A DNA stretch of 56,596 nucleotides from positions 1 to 56,596 of IMG/VR virus record IMGVR_UViG_3300042292_000782; one strand, written 5' to 3'. The translations under genes and the position numbers were made by a program. Source of the stretch: a virus. This document shows, one piece after another, positions 4,912 through 20,820 of the stretch (position 1 is its first letter; each line of letters starts with the position of its first letter). The notes beneath the pieces are model-generated. The model was not told the DNA's origin. It saw only the letters and a program-made list of their open reading frames with translations, and did not search any database.

Positions 4912-5105
4912 AGTTAGTGCAAATATTATATTAAAAAGTTTGATTTAACAATTTTAATATAATACAATCCACATAGAGATTCTAACTGCAATTCAACAAT
5001 ATCAACGTGTCGTGGGTTCGAATCCCACTATAACTTTACGGTTATATAATTCAGCTGGTAGAATATTTGAAAACAAATGAATCTTGTTAATGTTGCACAC
5101 TAACT
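4912..5105 (+). ncRNA. YrlA-like Y RNA candidate containing a circularly permuted tRNA mimic
   Basis: The tRNA pieces are in reversed order. First comes a T-arm GTGGG-TTCGAAT-CCCAC (5012-5028), then an acceptor 3' strand TATAACT (5029-5035), a 4-nt loop, an acceptor 5' strand GGTTATA (5040-5046; 7 bp with one G-U), then a D-arm ATTC-AGCTGGTA-GAAT (5049-5064). U8-A14, G15-C48, G18/G19 and the TTCGA loop are all present. Outside lie a stem AGATTC / GAATCT (4977-4982 with 5079-5084), a 12-bp hairpin (4925-4936 with 4952-4963) and an outer stem GTTAGTG / CACTAAC (4913-4919 with 5098-5104). No forward tRNA fits. Bacterial YrlA RNAs bind Ro60 and mimic tRNA in this way. The stem flanks match unit A of the array at 13447. 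Confidence 0.7.
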
Positions 5106-6005: not shown

Positions 6006-6737
6006 ATGAAACAATCATTAACACAATTCTTAATTGAAGCTTTTAATTTTGAGTACCATGATAATTTAAATCCTAAATTATGGAGTGGCGACTCTATTAA
6101 ACCTAAGATCCGCCAACATCTTTTAAAAATTGCTAAAATCTATTTTGAATCGCTAAACCTTTCACCAGATTACAAAATAACTGATGTCGTCATGACGGGC
6201 AGTTCAGCAAACTTTAATTATACCCGCCATTCTGACCTCGATATACACGTTATGATTGATAAAAACGCCGATCACTGTAAAGTTGTTGGTCTTGAATTAA
6301 TGGACGTACTTAAATCCAAAACTTTAGGTTGGAATCAAGAACACGACATTAAAGTATTTGGCTATTCTGTTGAAGTTTATACACAATTAGCTGATGAACC
6401 TCACCATTCTACTGGTGTTTATAGCTTACAAAACGATGAATGGGTAACTAGACCAGTACGTAAAAAAGGTATTGAAAAAACAGTTAATGAATATGCTGTT
6501 AATGTAAAAGCAAAAGCATTAAAAGAACTGATTGATAGTTTTAAAGATGTTTCTGATTATACAAAAATTAAAGAAGTACGTAAAAAAATTAAAAACATGA
6601 GACAAGCTGGTCTTGAAAGGGGTGGTGAATTCTCAACAGAGAATTTAGTTTTTAAAGAATTAAGAAATGCAGGTTATCTTGATAAATTGCAAGATTACTA
6701 TCTAGAAGCATTTGATAAATCATTATCGTTAAAATAA
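6006..6737 (+). CDS. Nucleotidyltransferase-fold protein
   Basis: 243 residues. Residues about 58-78 read 'VVMTGSSANFNYTRHSDLDI'. This is the GS-x(n)-D-x-D pattern of the Pol beta-type nucleotidyltransferase superfamily, with the two metal-binding aspartates in 'SDLDIH'. A third acidic position may be the Glu in 'VEVYTQ'. The C-terminal 90 residues are Lys-rich and helical. Homologues occur in marine T4-like phages as predicted nucleotidyltransferases. The substrate (nucleotide transfer to RNA, protein or antibiotic) is unknown. With the phage tRNAs and tRNA-like RNA nearby, an RNA substrate is possible but unsupported. Confidence 0.8.
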   Translation: MKQSLTQFLIEAFNFEYHDNLNPKLWSGDSIKPKIRQHLLKIAKIYFESLNLSPDYKITDVVMTGSSANFNYTRHSDLDIHVMIDKNADHCKVVGLELMDVLKSKTLGWNQEHDIKVFGYSVEVYTQLADEPHHSTGVYSLQNDEWVTRPVRKKGIEKTVNEYAVNVKAKALKELIDSFKDVSDYTKIKEVRKKIKNMRQAGLERGGEFSTENLVFKELRNAGYLDKLQDYYLEAFDKSLSLK

Positions 6738-7503: not shown

Positions 7504-9378
7504 TTAATATCTCTCAACAGATGTTTGGAATGGTTCAATTCCTAGTTTTTCAAATTCATTATTATAAACTTCCATAAATTTATCATAATCATCTGGATGA
7601 ACCATGATTGAATCGTGAATTGTAACTGCTGGATATTTCTTATGTTTAAAAAATTCTCTTACAATCGTGTTAATGAATAAAGCTGATTCAAATCGCTGAC
7701 ATAACATTGGCAAATAATGTACACCCTCGACTTCATTTAATTTATTAGATAATTCAATTAACGATGGGTATTTTTTACCAACATGATATTTGATTTGTCT
7801 AAACTGATCTTTGTTACTGAATAGAATACTCAATAAATTGATTTTAGCTTTATGTCTATCTGTACCTAAAAATTTAGCAACATATTCATAAATTTCACCG
7901 TTTCTTGTTCTTTCACAAAAATCTTTAACATCCTTTAGGTTTTTAATGATTTCAACAGCATCAATTTTAGATGCTAAATCAGCTGTTATACCTAATTTTA
8001 CTTCTGATAACAATCTCTTAGCTAATTCTGGGTGATCCATTATTGTTGCAAGTATTACCATTTGTGAATTACGAATATCTACGTTACAATATCTGGTACC
8101 TTCGTATTTTACATGACCACGTATAGCTGATTTTAAATTTGTAAAGGGTGTATGAAACCTACCACCAAAGTTATCACATGGATTAACATAAATTCCATTT
8201 TCTTTAATGCTTTCAATTGTTTCCGCTAATTGCATGGCTGACATTACATGAGGTTTTGCTAATTTTTCATGAAGTTCTTCTACTGTACTGACGTCATAAA
8301 ACTTAAATGGATCTTTTTTACAAGATTGAACCATCTCTTCCGTGTCAATTTTACCTATAATAATTTCAGCATCATCCATCATATCTAAATGCAGCTGTTC
8401 TTGTTGATTACGTTTTTTCTCACGATAATCAACCTTGAATTTTAACATCGTGTATTTGATATGGTAATTTTTATAGAAATCAACACGATGTTTACGTGTT
8501 GTTCCAGGAATAGAAAAATATTTTTCGTTTATTTTATAGCTAAAAGCTTTTTTATTATCAGCCCAATTCATGTAGATATGATCACATTCTATAATACCCG
8601 CTTCTTCTAGTGCATTCACATAATATTTGTATGTGTGTGTACTTGTATTTCGAAATAAATCCCATGAACATTGTACAAAACCTGATTTTTCTCTATATCT
8701 TGAATTCCATGTACCACGTCTAACAGCTAATTTGTATTGCATATACGTTATAGAAATCGTACTTATAACAGCTTTTGCAAAATCAACATCGAGCTTTATA
8801 TGTTTGCAGTCATGCTTGTCTTTATAAGCTACTAACGCAGCCATAATAACATTATCTTGTAAACCAATAGGTAACCGTGCTTTAACTTGAATAAATTCTT
8901 CTCTATTTGGAACATCCAACGTGTCAGCTAATTCATGGAACATTCTTTCATATCTGCCCATGTTTTGATACATTTCATTATGCACCCTAACAGGTGTTTT
9001 ATTAGGTAATGGTTGTAAGAATTCTTTTGCTTTTTCAATAGATTCAGTAGGTTCTAACGTGAGTGATTCATCAATAATTTTTTGAATCTTATTGACAAAT
9101 CTTTTTTGATATTTGTCACTGTTCTTAAATGTAGTTAGATCACCACTAACAATAGCTTGCTTTGCAACAAATAATGCTTCAACATAATCAGCAAGTTGTG
9201 ACTGTGTCCAGTCACGTACTGTATCGTATTGTGATTTATTCGTTCTTGAAGAAAAAATGTTAGGTCTCCACTTTCCTTCAACATGATCAAGAAAAAGTCT
9301 TGTTTCTTTATCGTATTTGAATAATATATGGCCAACTTTTTTTGTTACTAATTTATTTGAATATTCTATCATGTCCAC
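7504..9378 (-). CDS. Divergent PolA-superfamily (single-subunit) nucleic acid polymerase
   Basis: 624 residues. The C-terminal half holds three motifs in the order of family A DNA polymerases and T7-type RNA polymerases. 'YCNVDIRNSQMV' fits motif A (metal-binding Asp). 'DRHKAKINLLSILFSNK' fits motif B (the Arg/Lys O-helix). 'VTIHDSIMV' fits motif C, like the 'HDS' of T7 RNA polymerase. Upstream 'NFGGRFHTPFTNLKSAIRG' resembles the template-binding segment of a poorly described polymerase-like family of plasmids and phages. The N-terminal 300 residues are helical and basic with no exonuclease motif. The product may be RNA or DNA and the sequence alone does not decide. It is first in a three-gene minus operon. 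Confidence 0.7.
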   Translation of the reverse strand: MDMIEYSNKLVTKKVGHILFKYDKETRLFLDHVEGKWRPNIFSSRTNKSQYDTVRDWTQSQLADYVEALFVAKQAIVSGDLTTFKNSDKYQKRFVNKIQKIIDESLTLEPTESIEKAKEFLQPLPNKTPVRVHNEMYQNMGRYERMFHELADTLDVPNREEFIQVKARLPIGLQDNVIMAALVAYKDKHDCKHIKLDVDFAKAVISTISITYMQYKLAVRRGTWNSRYREKSGFVQCSWDLFRNTSTHTYKYYVNALEEAGIIECDHIYMNWADNKKAFSYKINEKYFSIPGTTRKHRVDFYKNYHIKYTMLKFKVDYREKKRNQQEQLHLDMMDDAEIIIGKIDTEEMVQSCKKDPFKFYDVSTVEELHEKLAKPHVMSAMQLAETIESIKENGIYVNPCDNFGGRFHTPFTNLKSAIRGHVKYEGTRYCNVDIRNSQMVILATIMDHPELAKRLLSEVKLGITADLASKIDAVEIIKNLKDVKDFCERTRNGEIYEYVAKFLGTDRHKAKINLLSILFSNKDQFRQIKYHVGKKYPSLIELSNKLNEVEGVHYLPMLCQRFESALFINTIVREFFKHKKYPAVTIHDSIMVHPDDYDKFMEVYNNEFEKLGIEPFQTSVERY

Positions 9379-9835: not shown

Positions 9836-11728
9836 ATGAAACAACAATATCTAGGAATAGAAGTCGACTTATCCAAAGATTCCAAATACGATGAGTTTCC
9901 GATTGAGTTGCTTAAGAAGCATTATTTGAAACCTAATGAGACGAGTCCGCAGTATGCATTTGCAAGAGCTGCTACAAATTTCTGTTACGGTGACTACGAT
10001 TTTGCACAAAGAATGTACAACTACGTATCTGATCAACTTGGTTGTTTTTCAAGTCCGATCATTTCAAACTCAGTTACAGGTACATGGAGTAATAAAATCG
10101 ATAAATGGGGCTATTCACAAGAAGATATCGATTATAGAAAAAACTCATTTGTAACAGATGATACAATTCGTGCGATGCCAATTTCATGCTTTATTACAAT
10201 GATACCTGATTCATTAAGTGGTCAGATTGAAGCTGCAAAAGAACTTGCACACTTATCTACAGTTGGTGGGGGTGTTGGTCAATATATGGGAATGAGGGGG
10301 ATTACAGAAAAATCACCTGGTGCTATCCCGTATCTTAAAACAATGGATAGTAACATCTTATATTATCATCAAGCTGGTACACGTCGCGGTACTGTTGCCG
10401 GTTATTTGGATATTACGCACCCAGATTTAATTGAGTTCTTAGGTTCGCGGGTACCATCTGGCGGTTCTGATCTTAACCGTAAAGCCTTTAATGTGAATAA
10501 CGCTGTTAATATCACATATGAGTTTTTAGATGCTGTTGAACAAGATTTAGATTGGAATTTAATTGATCCGCATTCAAAAAATGTTGTACATACTGTAAAA
10601 GCACGTGAATTATGGCACGAAATTTTGGAAACAAGATTTTTGACAGGTGAACCGTATATACATAACGTAGAAGAATCTAATATTAGACTACATCCAGCTC
10701 TTAAAGCTCGAGGGTATAGTGTAAAAGCTTCTAATATATGTACAGAAATTATCCTTATTATTGATGAGCTACATACTGCTATTTGCTGTCTACTAAGCAT
10801 CAATGGTGAAAAGTTTGATGAGTGGAAAGATACTCAGATTATTGAAGATTGTACACGGTTCTTAGATAACGTATTGCAGTGGTTTATTGATTATGCTCCA
10901 CCTGAGTTACATAAAGCTGTTCGATCTGCTAAAAATTCTCGTGATATCGGTCTTGGGTACATGGGATGGCACAATTTCTTAATGAAAAATAAAATACCTT
11001 TTGAATCTGGTGGGGTTGGTTCTGCTGCTCAATGGGCTTATAAAATTTCAAAACTAATGGACGAAAGATCTTTAGAAGCTTCAAAACTATTAGCAGCTGA
11101 ACGAGGTGAACCTGAATATTTGGTTGGATATGGTGTACGTAATGCTCATCGTATCGCTTATGCACCAAATGCTAATAGCTCTATTATTTGCCAAACAAGT
11201 GCGTCAATTGAAGCTATTAGAGCTAATATCTATGTACATAGAACCCGTATTGGTAGCTATACTGTTAAAAATAAATTCTTAGAAGCTGATGTAGAACGTA
11301 TTGCTGGTGAAAAAGGCCTTAATGTTAATGATATCTGGCTCACTATTCTACAAAATAACGGCTCAATTCAAGGTATGGACGATATCTTTACAGCTGAAGA
11401 ACAAAAATTGTATAAAATTGCTACCGAAATTGACCAACGCTACGTTATAGATCAAGCTCGTATTAGACAAGAGCATATCGATCAAGCTTGTTCTGTTAAT
11501 CTTCACTTTAATGAAGGTGTTTCAAGACGTGAACTTAATCAGCTACATTTAAGAGCATTGTCAAGAAATCCTGAATTACCCGGTAGACCATTGAAAACAT
11601 TGTACTATTTACGCGCTAACAAAGTAGATACATTTGAGACAGTATCTGGAAAAATTCAACGTTCAGCATTAAAGGATTACGAAAGCCAAGAAGTAGATAA
11701 AACTGATTGTACTTCTTGTCAAGCGTAA
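9836..11728 (+). CDS. nrdA: Class I ribonucleotide reductase, large (alpha) subunit
   Basis: 630 residues. It converts ribonucleoside diphosphates to deoxynucleotides with NrdB (12479). Visible residues: 'PISCFI' (redox Cys near 119), 'SNICTE' (radical Cys with its Asn and Glu partners near 302), 'AICCLLSING' (second redox Cys), tyrosines in 'YLRANKVDT' and a C-terminal 'CTSC' that shuttles electrons. The allosteric loop 'GGVGQYMGMRG' is present. The usual N-terminal ATP-cone is absent: the catalytic domain begins by residue 35, so overall activity control by dATP is probably lost. That also explains why the protein is over 100 residues shorter than E. coli or T4 NrdA. Confidence 0.96.
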   Translation: MKQQYLGIEVDLSKDSKYDEFPIELLKKHYLKPNETSPQYAFARAATNFCYGDYDFAQRMYNYVSDQLGCFSSPIISNSVTGTWSNKIDKWGYSQEDIDYRKNSFVTDDTIRAMPISCFITMIPDSLSGQIEAAKELAHLSTVGGGVGQYMGMRGITEKSPGAIPYLKTMDSNILYYHQAGTRRGTVAGYLDITHPDLIEFLGSRVPSGGSDLNRKAFNVNNAVNITYEFLDAVEQDLDWNLIDPHSKNVVHTVKARELWHEILETRFLTGEPYIHNVEESNIRLHPALKARGYSVKASNICTEIILIIDELHTAICCLLSINGEKFDEWKDTQIIEDCTRFLDNVLQWFIDYAPPELHKAVRSAKNSRDIGLGYMGWHNFLMKNKIPFESGGVGSAAQWAYKISKLMDERSLEASKLLAAERGEPEYLVGYGVRNAHRIAYAPNANSSIICQTSASIEAIRANIYVHRTRIGSYTVKNKFLEADVERIAGEKGLNVNDIWLTILQNNGSIQGMDDIFTAEEQKLYKIATEIDQRYVIDQARIRQEHIDQACSVNLHFNEGVSRRELNQLHLRALSRNPELPGRPLKTLYYLRANKVDTFETVSGKIQRSALKDYESQEVDKTDCTSCQA

Positions 11729-12478: not shown

Positions 12479-13432
12479 ATGTCAGTTTTAGAAGTAAGTA
12501 AAACATACAAACCATTTCATTATCCGTGGGCTGTGGAATTAGCATTACAGTCTGAGCGCTCTCATTGGACTCATGAAGAAACTGATTTTAGTCCAGATGT
12601 CGCTGATTGGCAAAATAACTTAACACCTCAAGAAAAAAATCTAATTCATCAAATCTTAAAATTCTTTACGCAGAGTGATGCTCAAGTTGCATCGATGTAT
12701 ACTAATAATTTGATACCAACATTTAAAAACAATGAAATTCAACAAATGTTGTTATCGTTTGCTGCACGTGAAGGTGTACATCAACGAGCGTACGCTGCAT
12801 TATTGACTACATTGAATTTACCTGAATCGGATTTTGAAGCATTCTTAGAATATGAGCAAATGTACTCAAAAATTGATTTTATGGGTGATAATGATACATC
12901 AACGCATAAAGGACGTGCATTATCATTAGTAAAAAATATTTTCTCTGAAGGTGTGTCGTTATTCGGTACTTTTATCATGTTACTGAATTTTTCAAGACGT
13001 GGTTTAGTAAAAGGTATGGGTGAAGTCAATCTTTGGTCTATTATCGATGAGCAAGCGCATTGTGATGGGTTGATTATGTTGTTGAGAACGTACCTTGAAG
13101 AGCATCCTCGTATAGTTAACGACGAGTTCAAAAAACAAGTGTATGATATTTCTCGTAAATTCTTTGAATTAGATGAAAAATTTATTGAATTAGCGTATGA
13201 AATGGGTGACATTGAAGGGTTACCAAAAAACGATGTTAAAGAGTATATGAAATATCTATTAGATCGTAGATTGATTCAAATGGGTCTCAAAGGTAATTTC
13301 AATGTTAAAGATAATCCTGTACCTTGGTTTGATGAGCTAATAGGTTCACCAGAACATACTAATTTCTTTGAAAGTAAACCTACATCGTATGTAAAAGGTG
13401 GTTTAACCGGTAGTTGGTTAGAAGCTTATTGA
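12479..13432 (+). CDS. nrdB: Class I ribonucleotide reductase, small (beta) subunit
   Basis: 317 residues. It houses the diiron-tyrosyl radical for NrdA. Ligand motifs: 'FFTQSDAQVAS' (first carboxylate region), 'REGVHQRAY' (Glu near 98, His near 101, radical Tyr near 105 with the E-x-x-H-x-x-x-Y spacing of class Ia), 'FSEGVSLFG' (Glu) and 'IDEQAHCDG' (Glu and His near 192-195). The radical tyrosine is present, so this looks like a Tyr-radical enzyme and not a Tyr-less variant. An AAGGA site precedes the ATG. It ends the nrd cluster and is followed by the structured RNA region. Confidence 0.95.
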   Translation: MSVLEVSKTYKPFHYPWAVELALQSERSHWTHEETDFSPDVADWQNNLTPQEKNLIHQILKFFTQSDAQVASMYTNNLIPTFKNNEIQQMLLSFAAREGVHQRAYAALLTTLNLPESDFEAFLEYEQMYSKIDFMGDNDTSTHKGRALSLVKNIFSEGVSLFGTFIMLLNFSRRGLVKGMGEVNLWSIIDEQAHCDGLIMLLRTYLEEHPRIVNDEFKKQVYDISRKFFELDEKFIELAYEMGDIEGLPKNDVKEYMKYLLDRRLIQMGLKGNFNVKDNPVPWFDELIGSPEHTNFFESKPTSYVKGGLTGSWLEAY

Positions 13433-13446
13433 TTATTAAATTATAG

Positions 13447-13551
13447 TTGATTTAAGTTTCTTAGATCATTATAATAAGAAATATAGATTCTACCAGCAAT
13501 TATTATACCAGACCTCTAATCTGACATTATAAATGAATCTAGTTAAATTAA
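13447..13551 (+). ncRNA. Array unit A (closest to the RNA at 4912)
   Basis: Outer stem TTGATTTAA / TTAAATTAA (13447-13455 with 13543-13551), hairpin TTTCTTA / TAAGAAA (13457-13481), stem TAGATTC / GAATCTA (13484-13490 with 13535-13541), motif CCAGCAATT, inner hairpin CAGA-CCTCTAA-TCTG (13509-13523). The order of outer stem, side hairpin and motif stem is the same as in the permuted tRNA-like RNA at 4912, and both motif-stem strands are nearly identical. Confidence 0.65.
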
Positions 13552-13561
13552 TAAAAGGATT

Positions 13562-13605
13562 GTACCAGTGATTAAAAACTCTTAATACAGTCTATTAGCT
13601 GGTAC
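13562..13605 (+). ncRNA. Array unit B
   Basis: Stem GTACCAG / CTGGTAC (13562-13568 with 13599-13605), motif variant CAGTGATTA partly inside the stem, inner hairpin TAATA-CAGTC-TATTA (13583-13597). Confidence 0.5.
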
Positions 13606-13622
13606 TTGAAATAGTTTTTTGA

Positions 13623-13678
13623 ACGATCTTAACAGCAACCAATATTCGACTCATAATCGGCAAATATTAATAGATCGT
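13623..13678 (+). ncRNA. Array unit C
   Basis: Stem ACGATCT / AGATCGT (13623-13629 with 13672-13678), motif ACAGCAACC, inner stem AATATT / AATATT capped by CGA-CTCATAA-TCG (13641-13668) with a 7-nt loop. Confidence 0.6.
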
Positions 13679-13786
13679 GTTTCTATCTTGAAAAAGATAG
13701 CATTAGGTTCAGTAATCTAATGTAATTCTGCACTAACTTTTAAATGAATCTAAACAACTTGAAAGTCGTTTAGATATTGATGTACC

Positions 13787-13874
13787 TTCTTAGGTTCGTT
13801 ATAAAACTCGCTTACAGCAATTAAACATTCTTATTGGAAAGATGAATGCGGGTTGCTAAAAACGAATCTAAGAA
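13787..13874 (+). ncRNA. Array unit E (long stem)
   Basis: A 14-bp outer stem (13787-13800 with 13861-13874, one G-U), inner stem CTCGC / GCGGG (13807-13811 with 13848-13852), motif ACAGCAATTAA, terminal hairpin CATTC / GAATG (13826-13848). Confidence 0.65.
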
Positions 13875-13879
13875 TATTG

Positions 13880-13975
13880 GTTACTTCATATTAAAAGCGT
13901 GAACAGCGATTAATACAATCTCCAAAAAGGTAACGTAGGTGGTGATAAACCTACAACGCGTTTTGATGAAGTAAC
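13880..13975 (+). ncRNA. Array unit F
   Basis: Outer stem GTTACTTCAT / ATGAAGTAAC (10 bp), second stem AAAAGCGT / ACGC-G-TTTT with one bulge, motif ACAGCGATTAA, terminal hairpin GTAGGT-GGTGATAA-ACCTAC (13935-13954). Confidence 0.65.
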
Positions 13976-14092
13976 TAACCTAATCCTTGTCATTTATGTA
14001 TTTTTAAGGATTAGACTTATGATTAACCTGCACAATGCTTCGATGGCGTAACTAACCTAATCCTATAAATTTATATGAGTTTATAGGATTAG
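13971..14092 (+). repeat. Duplicated 17-mer with two long hairpins
   Basis: GTAACTAACCTAATCCT occurs at 13971-13987 and again at 14048-14064. Each copy opens a hairpin: CTAATCCTT / AAGGATTAG (13980-14014, 9 bp) and a 13-bp stem at 14057-14069 with 14080-14092. This indicates a local tandem duplication within the RNA region. Confidence 0.75.
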
Positions 14093-14112
14093 GGTAAAAC
14101 CTAAGCGATAAT

Positions 14113-14167
14113 AGATGCTTCCAGCAATTTAAAAACTTTTTATTTGGCAAAAAGCAAACCAGCATCT
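14113..14167 (+). ncRNA. Array unit H
   Basis: Stem AGATGCT / AGCATCT (14113-14119 with 14161-14167), motif CCAGCAATTT, inner hairpin CTTTTT-ATTTGGC-AAAAAG (14136-14154) with a 7-nt loop. This is the cleanest example of the plan. Confidence 0.65.
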
Positions 14168-14216
14168 TGTTAAAGACAGTCTCTGCAATCAACCACTAAT
14201 GTCTTGGAGTATAAAA

Positions 14217-15701
14217 ATGGAATCAAATTTTCTATCAGCAATATCAAAACAAATGAATTTAACAGAAACGCAGAATGGCGCTATTACTAATAAAACATCA
14301 TTAGATAGTTGTGTCGATTTCTTTGCGCAAGGTGGATCAATTAGATCTAACAGTGAAAGTGAAATTTTAAGTCTGTTTGCAAAAGCGTTTGCACAAGATA
14401 AGACAATTGCTGTCCGTTTAATGTACATGTTTAGAGATATTCGCGGTGGTCAGGGACAAAGAAGACCTTTTCGCATACAATTACAGTGGTTGGCTCAAAA
14501 CTACCCAGATCAAACCAAACATTTATTAGATCACGTTGCTGAATATGGTAGATGGGACGATATCTATTCAGTTGTAGGTACAGCATGTGAGTCTTATGCT
14601 TTTAGTCTAATGAAACAACAAGTTGTAAAAGATTTAGATGGGCTTACAGCTAATCAACCTATATCAATTTTAGGTAAATGGTTAAAACGTATCAATACTT
14701 CAAGTGTCGAATCTGTAAAATTAGGTAACTTAACAAGAAAAGCATTTGGGTTGTCAGCTAAAGATTATCGTAAATTGTGCTCTAATTTGAACAGATATCT
14801 TCAAGTTGCAGAAAATAACATGAGTGCTAAAACGTGGGATAAAATTGAATATTCAAAATTACCAAGTCAGTGCCTATTAAAACACCGTAAAGCTTTTAAT
14901 AGAAACGATAGTGAGCGCTATCTCGAATTTATTGAATTAGCTAAGCAAGGTAAAGTTAATGTAAACGCTAGTACATTATATCCATATCAAATCGTATCAA
15001 AGATTCTTAGTAATTGGACGAGTAATATTACTCCTGGTGAAGCCGAAATCTTATGGAAAAATTTACCAAAAATTGAAGTTAATAGTAATGCTATTGTTGT
15101 AGCTGATGTTAGTGGTTCAATGACAGGTTTACCGATGGAAGTTTGTATTTCGTTAGCAATTTATTTTGCTGAACAATCAAAAGGACCATACAATAATAAG
15201 TTTATTACCTTTAGTGAAAAACCAACAATACAAGTGTTGCAAGGTAATAATATTTTTGAAAAAGTACACAGTTTATCAAGATCTGAGTGGGGTATGTCTA
15301 CAAATCTTGAAGCTGTTTTTAAAATTATTTTACAAGCAGCTGTAGCAGATGAGTTACAACCCGGTGATATGGTTGAGACAATTTATATCATTTCTGATAT
15401 GGAGTTTAATAGTATCACAAGAAATGAGATTAAAACGAATACAATTGAAACATTTTATGATACAATTAAATTGGATTTTGAACAATATGGGTATTCAATT
15501 CCTAAATTAGTGTTTTGGAACGTTAATGCTAATTCAGGTAATTTTCCAGTTGTACATAACACACCTAATACATGCATGATATCTGGTTTTAGTCCTAATA
15601 TTTTGAAGTATGTTACCGGTGAGCAAAATGAAATTTTAACACCAGAGGGTATGATGTTAGAGGTTGTAAACTCACCGAGATATTCAAATATTAATTTTTA
15701 G
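14217..15701 (+). CDS. Ro60-like TROVE/vWA protein (DUF2828 type)
   Basis: 494 residues from the ATG at 14217, chosen because GGAG lies 6 nt upstream. The earlier ATG at 14199 falls inside an RNA stem. Residues about 1-290 carry the HEAT-like signature of DUF2828/TROVE proteins: 'MYMFRDIRGGQGQRRPFRIQ', 'AEYGRWDDIYS', 'LGKWLKRINTSS', 'DYRKLCSNLNRYL'. Residues about 295-494 are a von Willebrand A domain whose metal-ion site is 'VADVSGSMTG' with a later 'IISDMEF' Asp. Ro60 is a ring that binds Y RNAs outside and misfolded RNA ends in the channel. Bacterial homologues are often encoded beside their Y RNA, as here. The function in phage (RNA quality control, host RNA decay or counter-defence) is unknown. 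Confidence 0.82.
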   Translation: MESNFLSAISKQMNLTETQNGAITNKTSLDSCVDFFAQGGSIRSNSESEILSLFAKAFAQDKTIAVRLMYMFRDIRGGQGQRRPFRIQLQWLAQNYPDQTKHLLDHVAEYGRWDDIYSVVGTACESYAFSLMKQQVVKDLDGLTANQPISILGKWLKRINTSSVESVKLGNLTRKAFGLSAKDYRKLCSNLNRYLQVAENNMSAKTWDKIEYSKLPSQCLLKHRKAFNRNDSERYLEFIELAKQGKVNVNASTLYPYQIVSKILSNWTSNITPGEAEILWKNLPKIEVNSNAIVVADVSGSMTGLPMEVCISLAIYFAEQSKGPYNNKFITFSEKPTIQVLQGNNIFEKVHSLSRSEWGMSTNLEAVFKIILQAAVADELQPGDMVETIYIISDMEFNSITRNEIKTNTIETFYDTIKLDFEQYGYSIPKLVFWNVNANSGNFPVVHNTPNTCMISGFSPNILKYVTGEQNEILTPEGMMLEVVNSPRYSNINF

Positions 15702-15734: not shown

Positions 15735-15769
15735 AAAGCGTTGTATATTTTTATATGACGCTTTTTTTT
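15735..15769 (+). terminator. Rho-independent terminator
   Basis: AAAGCGT / ACGCTTT stem extended by GTATAT / ATATG, followed by eight T residues. It ends the Ro60-like transcript. Confidence 0.85.
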
Positions 15770-15770
15770 G

Positions 15771-15778
15771 TCTAAATA
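15771..15778 (+). promoter_or_regulatory. Candidate T4-type late promoter
   Basis: TCTAAATA, 32 nt upstream of the gene at 15810. Confidence 0.35.
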
Positions 15779-20280: not shown

Positions 20281-20301
20281 ATACCAGTAATAACATTAAA
20301 A

Positions 20302-20820
20302 TTATGTTACTATTCCAATACGTTTTAATTGCTGTTCTAACGCTAAAATATGTTTACATGCACCTAATACATTACTTGGGTTGACAGGAGGTCTTGTCGA
20401 TCCAGGTACTTTAATGTACTGCTCAGGTGGTTCACCAACTAATGATTTGTTTTGATAATGCTGATGAGCAAACCTATACTTAAAATCAGAACAAGTACAG
20501 TTGATATTAACATCTACTGCATTCATTGTTAACCGGTCAATAGTATGTTCTTCACCGTCTGTACCTTTAAATTTAGCTAAACCAGCTTCTTGGTAATTTA
20601 CATCATTAAATTCGATTGCTGTTTGATATTGGTTGTTATTTGATACAGTATCAGCAATAACAATCAATTTTTCTGACGGTACGTATGGTTCAAATTTCAT
20701 ACGTAAAATATTTACTAAATGGGATACATTTTGACGTTTTTTTGTACCTGGGAACCCACTTACGTTGTTTTGTTTGATAACAGGCATTGTGATTTCTGTT
20801 AAAAATTTAAACTCTTTCAT
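20302..20820 (-). CDS. SWIM-type zinc-finger protein
   Basis: 172 residues. 'NCTCSDFKYRFAHQH' followed about 40 residues later by 'GACKHILAL' gives the C-x-C ... C-x-H pattern of SWIM zinc fingers. The N-terminal 90 residues are basic and hold 'FPGTKKRQNVSHLVNILRMKF'. SWIM domains bind DNA or proteins. Its start overlaps the stop of the upstream fibre-like gene, so it is coupled to a structural gene and may be a virion or assembly factor. The role is inference. Confidence 0.7.
   Translation of the reverse strand: MKEFKFLTEITMPVIKQNNVSGFPGTKKRQNVSHLVNILRMKFEPYVPSEKLIVIADTVSNNNQYQTAIEFNDVNYQEAGLAKFKGTDGEEHTIDRLTMNAVDVNINCTCSDFKYRFAHQHYQNKSLVGEPPEQYIKVPGSTRPPVNPSNVLGACKHILALEQQLKRIGIVT

Follow-up and report, generated by a model that had tools for sequence, protein, structure and literature searches.

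Mimicry of transfer RNA (tRNA) is a hallmark of bacterial Y RNAs. YrlA, which is partnered by Rsr/Ro60, is encoded beside the gene of a Ro60-fold protein, has ends closed by a stem and carries an inner module that mimics tRNA; this tRNA-like domain has been proposed to inhibit an anticodon nuclease competitively (PMC7790460). The Class I RNAs of Dictyostelia are 42–65 nucleotides (nt) long, with a stem that joins their ends, a conserved 11-nt motif beside the 5' strand of that stem and a variable remainder; they start with AAG, end with CUGU and have been described as absent outside Dictyostelia (PMC7919456). Conflicts over tRNA are also known from phages: the defence system PARIS cuts tRNA-Lys, and phage T5 escapes via a tRNA-Lys with an altered anticodon stem-loop (PMC11455837). 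The locus considered here lies in IMGVR_UViG_3300042292_000782, a virus contig of 56,596 bases (analysed at its full length and referred to below as the window) that encodes a T4-type portal, a ribonucleotide reductase, a thymidylate synthase and four tRNAs. In it, an array of structured RNA units (13484–14205) stands directly 5' of a DUF2828/DUF7788 gene for a Ro60-like protein. The comparisons described below suggest a system of the Y RNA/Ro60 type, in a variant form with a new shared motif (CAGCAAY beside a stem) and swappable tRNA baits.

The Ro60-like protein has 494 amino acids and is encoded on the plus strand at 14217–15701. Profile matches assign it to DUF2828 and DUF7788 (a von Willebrand factor A (vWA) domain with the motif DVSGSM) and to phrog_850. 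An AlphaFold2 model, for which the input was 49 sequences from IMG/VR loci, has a mean predicted local distance difference test score (pLDDT) of 88.6 and a predicted template modelling (TM) score of 0.89. Searched with Foldseek against the PDB, it gave two significant matches, to a Trove domain (9kop, E 8.4e-8) and to the Ro60 of Thermus phage phiLo (9l5y, E 5.4e-6; no paper on this structure was found). Both extend over the whole chain, with probability 1.00, TM scores of 0.50–0.57 and 15–16% identity. The protein is thus predicted to adopt the TROVE/Ro60 fold, a helical-repeat ring with a vWA domain, as had been supposed from the sequence before any structure was modelled. The metal site of the vWA domain (D-x-S-x-S, T, D) is formed by D297, S299, S301, T362 and D394, which are invariant in the 49 sequences. 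What is shared with Ro60/TROVE proteins is the predicted fold; the low identity and the family, DUF2828 with DUF7788, set the protein apart.

On the plus strand, the order is nrdB (which ends at 13432), a promoter-like site, the RNA array, the Ro60-like gene and a terminator-like hairpin. The first-pass annotation, made from the letters alone, had claimed a non-coding array of structured units in front of a TROVE/vWA gene, with stems that differ in sequence but keep their pairing. Both claims have held. There is no open reading frame of at least 80 amino acids on the plus strand between nrdB and the vWA gene, the stretch folds with a z-score of -5.04 against shuffles (0 of 20 reach it), and the four stem pairs that had been quoted (TAGATTC/GAATCTA, GTACC/GGTAC, ACGATCT/AGATCGT and AGATGCT/AGCATCT) are all present; the preserved pairing is seen as co-variation in related and unrelated phages. 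In the array, at least seven stem units follow a common plan, in which a stem is succeeded by 0–4 nt, CAGCAAY or a variant, a variable insert and the closing stem. Four units have strict CAGCAAY with a 7-bp stem, and three more have variant motifs. Each unit has the same outer part, formed by the closing stem and by the motif at its 5' strand, and a differing inner part that is often derived from tRNA. At curated thresholds, Rfam recognises four tRNAs in the whole window and nothing else; within the array, no tRNA is called by ARAGORN, nor is a full cloverleaf with an acceptor stem seen there. Taken singly (z +0.6 to -2.6), short units fold only weakly better than their shuffles, with one that shows no gain; the statistical argument is therefore a comparative one and does not depend on any single sequence.

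Evidence from close relatives is that the array is kept in L003, of which the Ro60-like protein is 81% identical, with the letters of the stems changed and their pairing retained, including both units that have an enclosing stem. In L005 (protein 60% identical), at least two clear units are kept. Of 50,697 phage records, 672 have a member of the phrog_850 family. Loci with the gene, 95 from phages (a few being near duplicates) and 80 from bacteria and archaea, were scanned for CAGCAAY accompanied by a closing stem of 6 bp or more, a strict motif that undercounts variants. Within 1.5 kb of the gene in the phage loci, 134 of 208 motifs on the same strand have a closing stem, compared with 3 of 33 on the other; six permuted motifs gave 0–5 with a stem. 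Up to 4 kb from the gene, 66 phage loci have a unit on the same strand and six on the other. The bacterial and archaeal loci, in which the gene end was approximated where a locus had a default position, gave a closing stem at 116 of 155 same-strand motifs against 7 of 38. These loci are mostly metagenome-assembled genomes of Clostridia, Treponema and Synergistes, and include the complete genome of Oscillibacter valericigenes and one assembled genome of Lokiarchaeota. Units also occur downstream of the gene, kilobases off, and within tRNA clusters; in Vibrio phage XZ1 (L013, W08), Aeromonas phage Aeh1 (L015, W10) and KVP40 (L179, W14) they are some 7–11 kb from the gene, on its strand. Judged from these loci, the array is not peculiar to this phage, and units go with the gene in many unrelated phages and bacteria.

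In an alignment of 42 units, 94.3% of the cells for the seven stem pairs are paired. This figure is high by construction, because the scanner that picked many of the units demands a stem; the variety of pair types in the stem is not a product of that demand. The covariation score is 0.749, compared with 0.230 for shuffled alignments (0 of 500 reach it) and 0.03–0.21 for slid versions. The covariance model built from these units, R2, was run on whole records; its E-values are rough because its calibration was short. Seven gene-bearing records had been held out (Enterococcus VRE9_3, Synechococcus B23, Campylobacter QDYZ, Vibrio XZ1, Aeromonas Aeh1, Fusobacterium Fnu1 and Vibrio KVP40); six have a match at E≤0.0015 and the seventh one at E 0.0975. 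None of eight gene-less records has a match at E≤0.01, absence of the gene having been confirmed by protein-profile search (KVP40 has it and was counted as gene-bearing). Such a covariance-model search had been proposed in the first-pass annotation, and its outcome favours the array as a conserved element. The gene-less records include phages with tRNA clusters, such as phiCbK, so the presence of such clusters is not enough to account for the units. Two matches in T4, one of the gene-less records, one to R2 (E 0.02) and one to the Class I RNA model RF01414 (E 0.0024), are put down to chance, since they lie at different places and the latter is mostly inside the coding sequence of gene 31.2; an R2 match on the minus strand of the window at 20292–20344 (E 0.066) was likewise taken as chance.

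Inserts that mimic parts of tRNA, a likeness absent from the first-pass annotation, are of several kinds: anticodon arms, D-arms, T-arms, or tRNA cores in which the shared outer part, here called the handle, replaces the acceptor stem. Anticodon loops were counted where a hairpin of at least 4 bp had a 7-nt loop identical to one of 175 loops from 673 tRNAs of the same loci; nine units, over all loci, that overlap a called tRNA were set aside. Among 163 distinct phage units, 31 have a real anticodon loop where shuffling gives 2.04 (the highest of 300 shuffles gave 8); in the genome loci, the figures are 21 of 125 units and 0.90 expected, and none of 32 chance units on the opposite strand has one. 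Loops of the form CU-NNN-AA number 17, against 0.43 expected. Those of Lys-UUU and Pro-UGG are the commonest in the phage set (six each). Other inserts, with AUUGG loops, resemble D-arms when judged by eye. In the genome loci, many inserts hold a D-arm, an anticodon arm and a T-arm, with the handle in place of the acceptor stem, and T-loops are present in 33 of 131 units (0.09 expected). DUF2828 genes accompanied by units whose tRNA-core insert misses the acceptor stem alone are found among the genome loci L098–L177, in bacteria and in the Lokiarchaeota assembly (e.g. L175 5777, L126 4637, L151 3535). Two Butyrivibrio loci (L169 5778, L177 5620) have an unusually long conserved insert with no obvious tRNA (GGGACGCGTTGAAAAGTCAGCTG...). 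Several anticodon-like loops have a changed U33: CCUCUAA in unit A of the array, CAUUUAA in L025 (7920) and L048 (6570), CGGUUAA in L053 (7858), and a further case in L090 (10350). This universally conserved base is replaced there by A, G or C, and such loops could be non-cleavable look-alikes.

How close these RNAs are to YrlA can be judged with the Rfam model RF02553, which matches the window at 4992–5094 (35.2 bits, E 1.2e-7 for the record). The match belongs to a separate Y-like unit on the plus strand, outside the array, at 4976–5085 (stem GAGATTC/GAATCTT, motif CTGCAAT), the insert of which has a T-arm, a hairpin and a D-arm as in YrlA (RF02553 alignment). Elsewhere, the best match is in L075 (50.3 bits), and one in L054 includes a stretch containing a CAGCAAC unit, which ties the handle to Y RNAs proper. 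The Y-RNA likeness suspected at the outset is supported by these matches in this phage and its relatives and by the tRNA mimicry. The matches range from 32 to 50 bits and none reaches the cut-off of 69 bits; the array units are unmatched. The T-arm and D-arm module is present in 4976–5085, L054 and L075, whereas the short array units, most of them 50–70 nt, carry single other tRNA arms (anticodon arms included) or none that is recognisable. Nor is the Ro-binding stem sequence of canonical YrlA (taken from the Rfam consensus) found; a stem with CAGCAAY stands there instead. The short units may already have been described as a kind, given incomplete coverage of the bacterial Y RNA literature.

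The likeness to Class I RNAs is in the end-joining stem, a motif with ACAGCAA beside its 5' strand and a variable rest. After the stem, most units continue with G and then U, and their commonest ends are AAGRY...RYCUUGU. On 15 whole records, RF01414 gave 20 matches at E≤0.1, 19 of them within 5 kb of the gene and on its strand, and several coincide with R2 matches (e.g. KVP40 176664); the best scores 31.8 bits, short of the cut-off of 41.5 bits. Class I RNAs differ in being eukaryotic and in their known partner, Rnp1A, a protein with an RNA recognition motif. The likeness may reflect shared descent or convergence. With phage tRNAs that evade anticodon nucleases, the units often share the same clusters and the variation of the anticodon loop, but they are without an acceptor stem and unable to serve translation as tRNAs.

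The array is read here on the plus strand. A sigma-70-like promoter, TTGATT-17-TATAAT (13447–13475), recognised by consensus match only (10 of 12 positions), ends about 8 nt before the first unit, and both hexamers are identical in L003. Unit A (13484–13541; stem TAGATTC/GAATCTA, motif CAGCAAT) was not in the training set of R2 and is matched at E 1.8e-7; its inner hairpin, CAGA-CCUCUAA-UCUG, resembles an anticodon arm with UCU and has C at position 33, and is identical in L003. Unit B (13562–13605; stem GTACCAG/CTGGTAC; fold z -2.6) has the variant motif CAGTGAT and is weaker. Unit C (13623–13678; ACGATCT/AGATCGT, CAGCAAC) scores 35.6 bits with R2 as a training member, and its inner hairpin, UCGA-CUCAUAA-UCGG, is an anticodon arm with CAU that recurs almost unchanged in Aeromonas phage LAh_6. 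It is followed by plain hairpins without the motif (13683–13775; fold z -2.7). Unit E (13787–13874; fold z -4.7) has a 14-bp stem enclosing a unit at 13805–13854 (AACTCGC/GCGGGTT, UUACAGCAAU), which R2, not trained on it, matches at E 5.5e-4; both stems are kept with changes in L003. Unit F (13877–13978; fold z -4.6) likewise has a 13-bp stem around an inner unit with the variant CAGCGAT (13904–13910), and has a counterpart in L003. Two long hairpins without the motif (13979–14096; fold z -5.5) precede unit I (14113–14167; AGATGCT/AGCATCT, CAGCAAT), a training member that scores 18.6 bits with the Class I model and possibly has an inner hairpin CUUUUU-AUUUGGC-AAAAAG. Unit J (14173–14205; AAGACA/TGTCTT with CTGCAAT) is kept in L003.

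The Ro60-like gene had been given a start at 14199, which should be revised: the likely start is the ATG at 14217, with the Shine–Dalgarno sequence TTGGAG at 14204–14209. The 3' strand of unit J abuts this Shine–Dalgarno sequence (14173–14209), an arrangement conserved in L003, and translational feedback or autoregulation is therefore possible. A terminator-like hairpin with a T-run follows the gene (15735–15772, plus strand), by consensus match only; together with the promoter-like site it would frame array and gene as one transcription unit, again on consensus matches only. Elsewhere in the window, downstream of the YrlA-like unit and of tRNA genes, is a nucleotidyltransferase-like gene (6006–6737; NTP_transf_2, phrog_36119 of unknown function).

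The explanation that we favour, and consider probable if well short of certain, is that the locus is a phage Ro60/Y RNA operon in which RNAs with a common handle carry tRNA-part baits that catch tRNA-handling enzymes. The Ro60-like protein would bind the outer part of each unit, that is, the stem and CAGCAAY, and the inner part would project as a bait, kept away from the protein. The array would thereby lend one protein several specificities. In a further step, the enzymes caught would most likely be host anticodon nucleases and similar tRNA-cutting defences, which the baits would occupy, possibly as non-cleavable look-alikes where U33 is changed. A bank of anticodon-arm baits fits, by analogy, the conflict between phages and tRNA-cutting defences. 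A bolder form of the proposal is put forward tentatively, being on balance doubtful: one Ro60-like protein and one handle with interchangeable baits would neutralise tRNA-targeting defences, and the Class I RNAs of Dictyostelium would use the same handle, which would make these orphans RNAs of the Y type, partnered by a DUF2828 protein.

Several observations weigh against the favoured explanation. Pfam TROVE (PF05731) does not match the protein up to E 10, DUF7788 and DUF2828 being found instead; by sequence, therefore, it is outside the curated family, though its predicted fold is that of Ro60. Classical Ro60 entries are absent among the 50 best Foldseek matches listed. No strict unit lies within 4 kb of the gene in 29 of the 95 phage loci. 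Most inserts are not a recognisable anticodon arm, many being D-arm-like, T-arm-like or unassigned, and the RF02553 model has no anticodon arm either. The system is present in bacterial genomes too, which would be unexpected for a role in anti-defence alone unless it is phage-derived there. Finally, the demonstrated partner of a Deinococcus Y RNA, which tethers Rsr to it, is PNPase and no anticodon nuclease (PMC7790460). This last point also favours a different use of the same ribonucleoprotein, in which the baits would be tethers between Ro60 and exoribonucleases or enzymes of RNA repair (PNPase, RtcB, RNA ligases), so that damaged tRNA would be degraded or repaired during infection. TROVE proteins of jumbo phages have been grouped with RNA repair (PMC7824862), and Listeria phage List-36 (L012) has RtcB (7849–9060) 1.3 kb downstream of its Ro-like gene, as Aeromonas phage LAh_6 (L017) has RNA ligase 2 (10097–11020) a few kb downstream. 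Among the proteins scanned in the window, though, none was recognised as an RNA ligase, RtcB or a known RNase partner, and one fixed partner would not need so wide a variety of anticodon loops; we regard tethering as fairly unlikely, though it is the main alternative.

The other alternatives concern the nature of the units themselves. That they are cis-acting elements of the mRNA (a leader, an attenuator or autoregulatory sites of the Ro-like gene) and give no separate RNAs is suggested by the co-linearity of array and gene, and autoregulation by unit J is plausible; as a general account it is improbable, because units are also found on the 3' side of the gene, at distances of kilobases and among clustered tRNA genes, their inserts copy parts of tRNA, and a further unit stands at 4976–5085. 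It is more improbable still that the units are simply canonical YrlA RNAs, already described in bacteria and phages. RF02553 does match several records, the window included, but always below its cut-off and never in the array units, of which the Ro-side stem with CAGCAAY is unlike the YrlA consensus; for the short units, which mostly lack the T/D-arm module, identity with YrlA is partly refuted. Least credible is that they are decayed or unusual tRNA genes. Many loci do sit in tRNA clusters, and some inserts are almost a whole tRNA core, yet L003, L005 and L009 have units with no tRNA in the stretch examined, the handle is conserved while the tRNA part varies, and at E≤0.01 the gene-less phages, of which some have tRNA clusters, yield no unit. 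Neither plain remnants of tRNA genes nor elements acting only in cis were therefore accepted as the main explanation.

If the units are the RNA partners of the Ro60-like protein, a common phage protein of unknown function (phrog_850/DUF2828) gains a likely RNA ligand and a role that can be tested, and annotators gain in the conserved handle an element that can be searched for. The tRNA mimicry of Y RNAs would then go beyond one module and include individual anticodon arms from many tRNAs, in keeping with the finding that some phage defences act by cutting tRNA. The match to Class I RNAs makes the long-standing question of the nature of those RNAs directly testable. Recurrence in many phages and bacteria suggests a widespread modular RNA–protein system, one that may bait tRNA-handling enzymes.

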